Part shown: piece by piece, positions 45,406-49,146 of the stretch
How the letters are laid out: each line of letters starts with the position of its first letter
Numbering within the stretch: the stretch's first letter is position 1
NCBI GenBank assembly: GCA_030532135.1
Contig: JAUNLT010000007.1
Location: forward strand, 1-64,000
Direction: 5' to 3'
Source of the DNA: Lagierella massiliensis
Lineage (GTDB): Bacteria; Bacillota; Clostridia; Tissierellales; Peptoniphilaceae
DNA length: 64,000 nucleotides
Notes under the pieces: model-generated
Told to the model about the DNA's origin: nothing
The model's input: the letters and a program-made list of their open reading frames with translations, nothing else
Databases searched by the model: none
Translations under genes and position numbers: made by a program

Positions 45406-45436
45406 TTGATAAACAGTTAAATTTCAGTGATATAAT
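45406..45436 (+). promoter_or_regulatory. Promoter of the secreted-peptide/ABC island
   Basis: TATAAT (45431-45436) preceded by TGA, i.e. a TGnTATAAT extended -10. A weak TTGATA lies 19 bases upstream. Two ribosome-binding-like sites follow (AAGGGGGGGTGAT and AAGGAGG). Confidence 0.6.
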
Positions 45437-45493
45437 ATAGTTGATGAATTAAGGGGGGGTGATTTTAATTTGAATAATTTTCAAGGAGGAAAT

Positions 45494-45820
45494 GTGAAAA
45501 CTTTAATAAAGAAAACTATTGCAATATCAATGTCAATATTATTAATTGGTTCAGTACCTTTAACAACCATTTCTAATGGTTATGTAAAAGAAAATAAAGG
45601 AAGTGTTACTGCTGTTGAAACTAAATATGTAAGTATTACTAGAAAATATAAAAGAGGAACAAGAGTTCCTGCCTCTATCCCTTATCAACAAGATGGTTTT
45701 GGAGGATATCTGAAGAGAGCTTCTAGATATTCATATGTAGAAGGAGATTATATTTTCTGGAATTTTTCAGGAACAGTGGCAAGATCCTCCGGTGGTGGAA
45801 TAGGTATAGGAGGTATATAA
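45494..45820 (+). CDS. Small secreted peptide, bacteriocin-like by context
   Basis: 108 residues from a GTG at 45494, preceded by AAGGAGG. A TTG at 45470, behind its own G-rich site, would add eight residues. Signal peptide VKTLIKKTIAISMSILLIGS to about residue 30. The mature part of about 75 residues is basic and aromatic, with a SIPYQQDGFGGYLKR segment like the SIxYxxGxYxGxL motif of secreted Firmicute proteins. It ends in a glycine tail SSGGGIGIGGI and has no cysteines. It is followed at once by a large ABC permease and ATPase. A role as exported bacteriocin-like peptide or signal is inferred; no family match is certain. Confidence 0.6.
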   Translation: MKTLIKKTIAISMSILLIGSVPLTTISNGYVKENKGSVTAVETKYVSITRKYKRGTRVPASIPYQQDGFGGYLKRASRYSYVEGDYIFWNFSGTVARSSGGGIGIGGI

Positions 45821-45878
45821 AATCTTCCCCCTCTTATCATCTTTTAATCGATAAATACATATTCAGAAAGGAGTACCC

Positions 45879-48254
45879 ATGTTCAGTTTTAATAAATTTT
45901 TCAAAAATAAAATTTGGGGTTATCTATGTCTTTTTTTCGCCATTATCTCTATTATATATGCAGTTAATCAAAAACAATCTTCAATTAAGTCAATTACAGT
46001 TCTAGACAAAACTCTGGAACAACTACCTTACCATCTAACTAATCTTAAAGCGTCTAAAAATAAATTAAAAGACAATAATTTAAAAGAAGAAATTACCCTT
46101 TATAATGAAAAAGCTACAAGCTTTTATTACATTGTTCAAGAAGCATATGGCAATACTTTTTCTTTTGACGACTCTTCATATTACGCAAATATGGATAAGG
46201 CTTATGATGTTTTCATAGAACTTCAAACAATGGAAGATTCTTTCATTGATAAACTTGACCAAAATTTATATAACAGATATTTTACAGACAAAGAAAATCA
46301 AATTGTAAACTTTTTAAATGTTTACAAATATCACAAAGATAATAACATAGAAATAAGTCCCACTAGAGAAACTTTCTTAGGTCTTTTTGAAAGTACTTGG
46401 AAATTATTATTCAGTTCAATATTTATTGTCGTAATGCTTATATTTGCAATCTTTATAAGTGAGTCTAGACAATTCAACTTTAAAGTAGATGATGGATCTT
46501 ATAAATTTCCCCAAATAAATCTACTCGATTTGGCTATGACAACATTTTTACCACCAATTATAATTATATCTTGTTTCTTAGGTATAGGTGTACTCTCTGT
46601 CTTAAGGAGAAATCCCTTCGGAAGTTTCAGAGAACTCCTCACTTATGATGTACTACTTGGAAATTCTTTCAGTTTAATTGATCCTAATAGTAACTTTGGG
46701 ATTTACCATAATTCCTATATACTTATTCTTTTACAACTATTACTTACAACTACACTTTGTTTTTTAACAATGTACTTAATTTACAAACTGTTTAGGAAAT
46801 TTTTAAATTTTGGAATTTCAACTGTTTTAACCTTTTCAATTGTATCTTCAATTATATTTTTACAAGAAAAATTTATAGAATTAGAACTTTATTTTTCTTT
46901 TAATCAAATAAAAATACTCTCAAGGAATACAAATTTAATCTTATTAATAGCTTTAGTAGCTATATTCTCTTGCCTAAATTATATATTTAGATATAGAAGA
47001 GAATCTAAGTTTAACTTAAATAAATATTATAATTCAAAAAATATAAAAAACTTAAAATCCTTTGAGATTGTAAAAATTAAAAGGAGTCCTTTTATAAATA
47101 TTTTTTTTGTTACAATTGTAATTTTAAGTCTTCTAATACCTTTTTCATTTAACGAATCACCTGAAAAAATTAAAAACGACGCTATTACAAATCTAGATGT
47201 ATTGATTAAATTTCAAAAAAATTTCTTAGAAGAATTTAAAGGAATAGATCGGGATAATATGTTAAATAATCCAGAACAAACCATAAGTCTACTAGAAGAT
47301 ATACAAAAAACTTATCCTAAAAAAGACAAAAATCCTAAAGCATATCTAAAAAGTCTACTAAAATATAATATTCAAGGTGATGCTGTTCTTATAGGCGATG
47401 AAGATAATTACAATACAAATCAAAACTATGTTGTCGATAGAATAAAATACTTCTTAGACAATGACTTAAAACCCGATGATGAATTAAATATAACTGGTGT
47501 ATACGACAACTTATTCGTTTTAAAAAAACCTAGTAGTTTGTATTTAAACAATATGTACTTTAGAAATTTTGAAGATAGTGGAGCAATGGGACAATTTGTA
47601 AAAGCCCATGACATAGGTTTTATACCATTAATAACTTTCTTAATTTGTTCCATTATATCTTTTAAAACTTGTGAAGATTTAAAAAAGAGCAAGACTGTTC
47701 TTTTATTGTCCTCAGGAAAGTCAAAAAGCAAGATTTTTCTCACAAAGTTTTTAAGCGCCTTAGTATTAAGTATTATATCTATAATAATTGTATATATCCT
47801 GATATTTGGAATAGGATTTATTAAAGACGGACTCGGTGAACCAAAATATCCTCTAATAACCTATGCTTCATTAAGTTCTGATGTAAAATATATAGGTGGA
47901 AACATTGCTGTTATTAACATTTTGCCAAAAGTGATACTATCTACTATTCTTTATGCGGTTACCTTAATAAGTTTTATCTTTATGATATTTTCTACAGGAT
48001 TTAAGGGATCTAGTGTAATTACTATAATATGTATAGTCCTTGGTATGTCTATTGCTAATATGGGCCTTTTAGGAAAACTATCTGTAATAAACCCCTTTAA
48101 TTATTTTGACTCAATGCTATTTGTGAATGGAGGAATAAGCTTTGTTAATAATACTCCAACCATAAACTTTGTTACCGGTTGTCTTGTCATGATTATAGAA
48201 AGCATAATTTTTATATCTATTGGAAATGTTATTTTAAATAGGAGGTATTTATGA
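45879..48254 (+). CDS. Large ABC-2-like permease with duplicated architecture
   Basis: 791 residues. Each half shows the same layout: one helix (about 12-28; 405-424), an ectodomain of 150-165 residues (30-175; 425-585), then five helices. This suggests fusion of two permease units, although sequence likeness between the halves is weak. No enzymatic motif. It resembles the integral membrane proteins encoded beside lactococcin-972-type bacteriocins in size and layout only. Preceded by AGAAAGGAG; its stop overlaps the ATPase start (ATGA). Likely exports, or protects against, the peptide encoded upstream. Confidence 0.65.
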   Translation: MFSFNKFFKNKIWGYLCLFFAIISIIYAVNQKQSSIKSITVLDKTLEQLPYHLTNLKASKNKLKDNNLKEEITLYNEKATSFYYIVQEAYGNTFSFDDSSYYANMDKAYDVFIELQTMEDSFIDKLDQNLYNRYFTDKENQIVNFLNVYKYHKDNNIEISPTRETFLGLFESTWKLLFSSIFIVVMLIFAIFISESRQFNFKVDDGSYKFPQINLLDLAMTTFLPPIIIISCFLGIGVLSVLRRNPFGSFRELLTYDVLLGNSFSLIDPNSNFGIYHNSYILILLQLLLTTTLCFLTMYLIYKLFRKFLNFGISTVLTFSIVSSIIFLQEKFIELELYFSFNQIKILSRNTNLILLIALVAIFSCLNYIFRYRRESKFNLNKYYNSKNIKNLKSFEIVKIKRSPFINIFFVTIVILSLLIPFSFNESPEKIKNDAITNLDVLIKFQKNFLEEFKGIDRDNMLNNPEQTISLLEDIQKTYPKKDKNPKAYLKSLLKYNIQGDAVLIGDEDNYNTNQNYVVDRIKYFLDNDLKPDDELNITGVYDNLFVLKKPSSLYLNNMYFRNFEDSGAMGQFVKAHDIGFIPLITFLICSIISFKTCEDLKKSKTVLLLSSGKSKSKIFLTKFLSALVLSIISIIIVYILIFGIGFIKDGLGEPKYPLITYASLSSDVKYIGGNIAVINILPKVILSTILYAVTLISFIFMIFSTGFKGSSVITIICIVLGMSIANMGLLGKLSVINPFNYFDSMLFVNGGISFVNNTPTINFVTGCLVMIIESIIFISIGNVILNRRYL

Positions 48255-49075
48255 TAGAAATAGAAAATCTTAAAAAAAATTATGGTCAAAAGGTTGTTCT
48301 TGACCAGTTGTGTCTAAATATAGAAAGACCCGATATATACGCACTGGTTGGACCAAATGGTACGGGAAAGACAACTTTAATGGATATTATAGCAAATTTT
48401 GTAAAGAAGGATTCGGGAAATGTAAGAATATGTGATATGGACCATAGTGACTTTAAAATTTTCGAAAAGCTGTCTTACGCAAGAAATCTTAATATGCTTT
48501 ATGATAATCTTACAGGACTGGATCATTTGGAACTTGCGAAGAGTTTAAAAAAGGTAAGTGACAAGGACTTTAAAGAAACTCTTGAGATATTTGGGGTATC
48601 AGACTTTATGAAAAAGAAAGTATCAACCTATTCTCTAGGAATGAGACAAAAGATGCTGCTAACATATTTTTTTATTGGAGATTACAAAATTTATATGATG
48701 GATGAACCACTTACCGGACTTGATCCTAGTTCAATCATAACCCTAAGAGAATATCTTCACTATCTTAAATCTAAAGGAAAAATGGTAATTCTCTCGTCCC
48801 ATACACTATCCGAAGTGGATAAGACCACAGATAAAATACTATTTTTATCCAAGGGGAAAATATTAAAGGAAAATCTACATTCCTTTGCTGTAGAAAAATA
48901 TCTTTTAAAAACGGATGTTTCATTAAATTATGAAAAGATAAATGATGAATATATCATTCCAAGTGAAGAGCTAGACACGGCAATACGAAATGTGCACACT
49001 AATAAAGGAAAGATTCTATCCATTGAAAAGTATTTGAAATCTACCGAGGAAAGATATAAAGAACTTTATGGTTAA
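48251..49075 (+). CDS. ABC transporter ATP-binding protein of the peptide island
   Basis: 274 residues. Walker A GPNGTGKTTLMD, signature YSLGMRQKMLL (the CcmA/bacitracin-export variant), Walker B IYMMDEPLTGLDP, His switch LSSHTLSE. The C-terminal 70 residues are a variable domain. It powers the 791-residue permease with which it overlaps. Confidence 0.92.
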   Translation: MIEIENLKKNYGQKVVLDQLCLNIERPDIYALVGPNGTGKTTLMDIIANFVKKDSGNVRICDMDHSDFKIFEKLSYARNLNMLYDNLTGLDHLELAKSLKKVSDKDFKETLEIFGVSDFMKKKVSTYSLGMRQKMLLTYFFIGDYKIYMMDEPLTGLDPSSIITLREYLHYLKSKGKMVILSSHTLSEVDKTTDKILFLSKGKILKENLHSFAVEKYLLKTDVSLNYEKINDEYIIPSEELDTAIRNVHTNKGKILSIEKYLKSTEERYKELYG

Positions 49076-49103
49076 GATTAAAGTATAATAAAAATTAATG
49101 AAT

Positions 49104-49146
49104 ACAAAAAAGGTTGTGTCACAGTATCGACACAACCTTTTTTTGT
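49104..49146. terminator. Bidirectional terminator
   Basis: Perfect stem AAAAAAGGTTGTGTC / GACACAACCTTTTTT with an eight-base loop and T runs on both strands. Separates the plus-strand island from the convergent ligase gene. Confidence 0.9.

Follow-up and report, generated by a model that had tools for sequence, protein, structure and literature searches.

A candidate Sec-type bacteriocin family with a fused double ABC-2 transporter in Lagierella massiliensis and other Firmicutes

We analyzed a 64,000-nucleotide stretch of Lagierella massiliensis DNA (positions 1 to 64,000 of contig JAUNLT010000007.1, assembly GCA_030532135.1; 1.23 Mb, completeness rated 65%), hereafter called the window. At 45406-49146 it carries a plus-strand unit consisting of a peptide gene, a permease gene of the ABC-2 (ATP-binding cassette) type, an ATPase gene and a terminator hairpin. 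An original prediction, made from the sequence of the window, had described a three-gene unit placed between two minus-strand groups, and re-reading of the coordinates and neighbors bore this out; the flanking groups are ylxM-ffh and ATP-grasp/GpsA-like (gene names by eye). From the comparisons described below, we consider it somewhat probable that this cassette represents an undescribed bacteriocin family of the Sec (general secretory) type with an ABC pump for immunity.

The peptide gene opens with a GTG codon at 45494 behind AAGGAGG at 45483 and encodes 108 residues. As proposed, its product lacks Cys; its N-terminus is basic and then hydrophobic and looks signal-like (by eye and by a crude hydrophobicity rule), and it contains both the SIPYQQDGFGGYLKR motif and a GGGIGIGGI tail. 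Beyond residue 28, a cut that we chose, the net charge is +7 and the isoelectric point 9.9. No Pfam, NCBIfam or PHROGs family matched the window peptide at a convincing E-value, the PHROGs scan giving nothing below E 0.05.

Permease searches gave 34 loci that were read, with tandem copies counted once; these come partly from near relatives (G054/G055, G079-G081, G099-G103 and G303/G342) and are not 34 independent cases. The named relatives are Lagierella massiliensis SIT14 (G083) and Mediannikoviicoccus vaginalis Marseille-Q5883 (G084), both grouped in the genus of the window, and Finegoldia magna DSM 20470 (G054); G055 was taken as Finegoldia from the genus label that it has in common with G054. 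The predicted conservation of the peptide-permease-ATPase order was supported by this survey, in which the grouping recurs at 21 of the 34 permease loci, each with an adjoining small secreted protein of ~90-117 residues whose start is signal-like and whose core consists of two [YFW]xGx[LIV] strands 10-40 residues apart. A strict form of the motif was passed by 18 of the 21, two G084 loci and G342 being counted from the alignment; shuffled mature sequences passed it in 1.1% of trials. Apart from those of G084, the permeases are 14-22% identical to that of the window (17-sequence alignment). Genus g34 has the permease as separate half-size proteins; in G490, a pair of half-size permeases occurs together with an ATPase and a divergent peptide gene.

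That the window cassette came from a phage or plasmid was considered and rejected: the window peptide and the permease alignment had no relatives on viral contigs (no search of the phage record collection was made), and the window peptide and permease had none among plasmids, but a permease of G303 matched four Cytobacillus plasmids. In the two of these four records that were opened, WP_019379905.1, a peptide of the same kind, is divergent to the ATPase and permease genes, with one gene between, and the peptide is annotated as a hypothetical protein and the rest as generic ABC transporter parts. A profile of 20 peptides identified three relatives outside the training genomes, one in G386 (E 7e-13) and two in G581 (E 6e-9 and 3e-7); two stand-alone peptides searched against plasmids gave no relative there. 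The 20 peptides themselves matched no recurring Pfam or NCBIfam family beyond weak matches (best E 0.017 and 0.027). Weak peptide matches at E up to 1 came from 28 genomes, most of which were dropped on open-frame length and, where fetched, neighbors, as were profile rows above about E 1e-6. In G046 (L148:4551-5253), two adjacent small secreted proteins, one of them bearing a double YxGxL motif, lie behind a metal-uptake-like ABC operon without the cassette transporter.

The 791-residue permease had been predicted to precede an ATPase and to consist of two like halves, a layout that the hydropathy averaged over 17 permeases reproduced. The N half has a transmembrane helix (TM) at 12-30, ~145 residues outside, and TMs near 175, 221, 283, 315 and 352; the C half has a TM at 406-424, ~154 residues outside, and TMs near 579, 628, 690 and 764, with an extra TM near 713 only in the single-sequence plot. 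Comparison of the halves by hhalign, using 16-sequence profiles, gave 99.5% (E 2.4e-22, 204 columns) in a match that spans the five-helix parts, with the first helix and ectodomain outside it. Because the layout repeats and the halves align in this way, the permease is, as judged from sequence, a fused duplicate. It passed Pfam ABC2_membrane_3 over residues 405-781, in the C half (44.5 bits versus a cut-off of 31.6), and matched no NCBIfam family at E 0.1; the MutE/EpiE-type model TIGR03732 was matched by 2 of 17 relative permeases (best E 0.0022). The ATPase, whose gene overlaps that of the permease by 4 nt, had TIGR03740 as its best NCBIfam model (159.6 bits, under the cut-off of 309.75). 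Among solved structures, the permease profile gave nothing below E 0.047 and the peptide profile nothing below E 0.26, and none of these matches was plausible.

The evolution of the peptide gene differs from that of the transporter. At 13 of the 34 loci the transporter is retained without the peptide, including both loci of G083, which has both of the G084 cassettes minus the peptide; their permeases are 87% and 92% identical, with ratios of nonsynonymous to synonymous substitution rates (dN/dS) of 0.14 and 0.24. Within genus g34, the peptide is missing in G099 and G102 and present in G100, G101 and G103. At Finegoldia locus A (two genomes), the peptides are 38% identical with a dS of 1.5, versus 89.6% for the permease and 97.5% for the ATPase (dS of 0.25 and 0.28, respectively), and the divergent block begins approximately where the upstream gene ends and reaches as far as the start of the permease. 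To all appearances, the peptide at this locus has been swapped as a block. The dN/dS of 0.89 for the window and G084 peptides was not used, as this pair is too diverged. Paralogous peptides of G303 and G342 have nearly the same signal peptide and differ in sequence after it. One stretch of G303 (L092:1529-14343; L127:2105-2383) carries four permeases, two peptides and two near-identical ATPases, with a third peptide ~3 kb off; this third peptide and the tandem ones have the signal part alone in common. A parallel comes from streptococcin B, a three-gene locus similar to those of lactococcin 972: in pneumococci, 157 of 571 genomes retain scbBC without the bacteriocin gene scbA, according to the accessible part of PMC11796350. 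The loss, exchange and paralogue patterns together suggest that a weapon with separable immunity would fit better than a subunit. The original prediction had named a bacteriocin or signaling peptide with an export or immunity transporter; a bacteriocin with immunity appears favored, and export disfavored, because the peptide is lost while the transporter is kept and because it is exchanged as a block.

Several cassettes have a 5' leader that is predicted to pair with the stretch between the peptide and permease genes. The duplex energy reached a z of -3 or below in 5 of 17 cassettes, versus 0 of 51 adjacent-gene control pairs, and for the expected pairs in the full fold, no more than 2 of 40 shuffles did as well in 8 of 18 cassettes, and none did in 4 of these. 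Against the stem, 10 of the 18 cassettes lacked support (at least 3 of 40 shuffles as good), and the window stem failed the duplex-energy test, with 15% of shuffles as good. The latter stem is borderline, having 22 core pairs in both the minimum free energy (MFE) and centroid structures and 1 of 40 shuffles as good by expected pairs. The G084-1 stem passed the duplex test and failed the expected-pairs test, and the FmagB stem passed in G054 and failed in its orthologue in G055 (expected pairs), so that the Finegoldia pair disagrees. Arm sequences vary between loci without loss of pairing, and a G-C pair in G100 corresponds to A-U in G103; G100, G101 and G103 are close relatives. An invertible DNA element behind the inverted repeats is not favored, since the arms differ while pairing is kept, as in the G-C to A-U change. 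Where the long stem is missing, a local hairpin follows the peptide gene at some loci (by eye). A role of the stem in dosing may be considered.

The cassette is accessory and has moved, because in both sister species (G083 and G084) the nearest cassette has another location, with an Rnf-like operon on one side and an antiporter-like gene on the other (names by eye), and because in G083 the gap from the ATP-grasp gene to ylxM-ffh holds other genes instead. The latter (L168:4380-7969) include two genes, of 845 and 351 aa, that resemble an McrBC restriction pair by eye, and the gap may be an insertion hotspot. In the Finegoldia genome G055 (L048:3406-15105), two cassettes flank an rpsL-rpsG-fusA-tuf-like operon (names by eye), and in G084 (L045:3390-4613) the peptide gene is immediately preceded by a transposase-like gene, which by eye is IS110-like. 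The features of the window cassette are listed in Table 1. An own promoter and a bidirectional terminator had been proposed for it. The hairpin was found with A/T runs on both sides; a scan assigned it to the minus strand, and it was read as bidirectional by eye. The promoter is only plausible: it was drawn by eye and is not above chance, as a scan listed 25 sites versus a mean of 24.6 in shuffles and did not list the TTGATA/TATAAT site of the cassette.

Table 1. Features of the cassette and their positions in the window.
Feature	Position	Strand	Basis
Promoter-like site TTGATA, 19-nt spacer, extended -10 TGaTATAAT	45406..45436	+	by eye
Stem 5' arm (predicted), bracketing the peptide gene	45443..45467	+	MFE and centroid
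Ribosome-binding site AAGGAGG of the peptide gene	45483..45489	+	
Gene of the 108-aa basic peptide; core strands FGGYL and FSGTV, glycine-rich tail	45494..45820	+	
Stem 3' arm (predicted), from the stop codon of the peptide gene into the peptide-permease gap	45818..45841	+	
Permease, fused double ABC-2, 791 aa, two ectodomains	45879..48254	+	Pfam ABC2_membrane_3; halves homologous
ABC ATPase, 274 aa	48251..49075	+	Pfam ABC_tran, 74.7 bits
Terminator hairpin common to both strands	49106..49143	.	16 pairs, A/T runs each side

If the cassette is a bacteriocin-immunity system, the first gene would yield a small protein that, from its N-terminus, is probably secreted via Sec, and its mature part of ~80 residues, with two Y-x-G-x-L strands of presumed beta fold, would inhibit related bacteria. 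As judged from sequence, the permease and ATPase make up an ABC-2 pump that has two large domains outside the membrane, and the producer would be protected because this pump removes the protein, or the complex with its target, from the membrane. A lineage that has lost the weapon would still keep this protection, as the transporter-only loci suggest, and at some of the loci the predicted RNA stem around the peptide gene may cause peptide and pump to be made in different doses. The full proposal, in which an unnamed Sec-secreted bacteriocin family in Firmicutes combines two Y-x-G-x-L strands with a fused double ABC-2 immunity pump, and the peptide gene undergoes exchange and loss as a unit and, in some members of the family, lies within an RNA stem that sets the doses of toxin and immunity independently, is put forward tentatively, as slightly less than an even call. 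Several points weigh against a bacteriocin. The signal peptide of the window protein was judged by eye, no quorum-sensing or two-component regulator adjoins the window cassette, and the 12 kb read for the three peptide relatives in G386 and G581 contains no transporter of this kind. The peptides of Finegoldia locus B share 92% identity at a dN/dS of 0.145 and give no sign of an arms race; this shows that the peptide family is a genuine coding one and that flux does not extend to every locus. Furthermore, the swapped peptide of locus A, if working, pairs with a near-unchanged permease, and therefore recognition cannot depend on the variable part. Inhibitory activity and immunity are putative for every member.

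Three other explanations of the cassette were weighed. The peptide might be an extracellular partner or ligand of the transporter, e.g., a lipid- or drug-handling accessory, the whole being a self-defense or envelope-maintenance pump. The tight gene neighborhood, the core motif conserved in peptides that differ elsewhere and the conserved peptide of locus B would suit such a partner, but the 13 loci that keep the transporter alone, the peptides that exist without a transporter nearby and the exchange beside a nearly unchanged permease make it unlikely. A pheromone that the transporter exports or senses would be secreted and variable between close relatives, as the peptide is. However, no sensor or regulator lies beside the window cassette, none is evident by eye in the listed cassettes of the relatives, and with a Sec-like signal no dedicated exporter is needed. 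At ~80 residues, the size of a folded protein, the product is also large for a pheromone, and we regard this possibility as improbable. Finally, a general ABC-2 pump might by chance neighbor an unrelated small secreted protein, with which the peptide-less loci agree; the recurrence of the same motif family beside permeases of low mutual identity, and the rarity with which shuffled mature sequences pass the strict motif, leave this highly improbable.

A fourth explanation, which overlaps the preferred bacteriocin reading rather than excluding it, is a far-diverged branch of lactococcin 972 (Lcn972) with the same fold and target and another sequence and partner. The same three-gene plan speaks for it, as does mediterrocin, which according to the available excerpt of PMC12345188 is filed in the Lcn972 family at 18% identity and predicted to share the Lcn972 structure; because of this precedent, a common fold with Lcn972 may be possible despite the sequence distance. 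On the other side, the Lactococcin 972 profile (PF09683 or its NCBIfam counterpart) was absent in 20 peptides at E up to 1, and hhalign against an Lcn972-family peptide, a single sequence on that side, gave 0.2%. This was the one sequence at hand for the comparison because PF09683 was matched by 2 of the 299 genomes and because searching plasmids with this same peptide gave nothing. The permease and ATPase are of another class: the DUF1430/bact_immun_7tm partner (TIGR01654) was absent among the matches of the 17 permeases, hhalign against six TIGR01654-like permeases gave 45% over 72 columns only, the ATPase scored 95.2 bits against TIGR03608 (cut-off 254.85), and four Lcn972-type ATPases formed a separate clade in the ATPase tree. 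Moreover, a TIGR01654 search of nine genomes gave matches at other loci in six, one of them over the cut-off, and therefore related systems exist side by side with the cassette. Profile, hhalign and partner class thus argue against membership in the Lcn972 family as defined by sequence, and we hold a distant branch to be rather improbable. In Finegoldia, G083 and G084 (L142-L145), TIGR01654-like permeases occur with an ATPase and no Lcn972-like peptide seen beside them; in Finegoldia they come after what by eye is a two-component pair.

Among the matches listed from the open-access literature, none described a peptide family of this kind, subscription papers and preprints being outside the coverage; in the accessible part of the pan-genome paper on Finegoldia (PMC5762925), bacteriocins are mentioned only among strain-specific functions. 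The JUQZ-1/BLB8 bacteriocin was rejected as a relative, since the weak NCBIfam match of one member covers residues 1-41, mainly signal peptide, and the available text of PMC11747845 gave no reason for a link. The lantibiotic self-protection transporters LanFEG and MutE/EpiE (TIGR03740/TIGR03732) resemble the cassette in having an ABC-2 permease and in the best model of the ATPase. They differ from it in that the cassette ATPase falls below the curated cut-off, the window permease is not of the MutE/EpiE type, the permease halves are fused and no lantibiotic modification genes adjoin the window cassette. Full-length exporters of the ABCA type have a helix, a large ectodomain and five helices twice per chain, the same double layout as in the cassette permease, whose ATPase is a separate protein and which has no solved-structure relative by sequence profile. 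The hosts include human-associated anaerobic cocci (Finegoldia, Mediannikoviicoccus and, in a peptide-less form, Lagierella), other Firmicutes and Cytobacillus plasmids. If the bacteriocin reading is correct, the cassettes would offer testable weapon/immunity pairs, with the loci that lost the peptide and kept the pump as natural controls. The original prediction had seen a resemblance to lactococcin-972-type loci with a peptide outside that family, and both parts agree with the gene order and the profile search. In the accessible parts of PMC11796350 and PMC12345188, loci of this type (Lcn972, streptococcin B scbABC and mediterrocin) encode a signal-peptide protein followed by a large membrane protein and an ABC ATPase, and include peptide-minus loci that retain the other two genes. 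The cassette has instead an ABC-2 permease in place of the DUF1430 7-TM protein, an ATPase of another group and a peptide without profile match. Altogether, the cassette combines ordinary parts with an unnamed peptide family, and its evolution points to a putative bacteriocin-immunity system on the lactococcin-972 plan and of different make, which, if true, would be a second, sequence-unrelated family using that plan.

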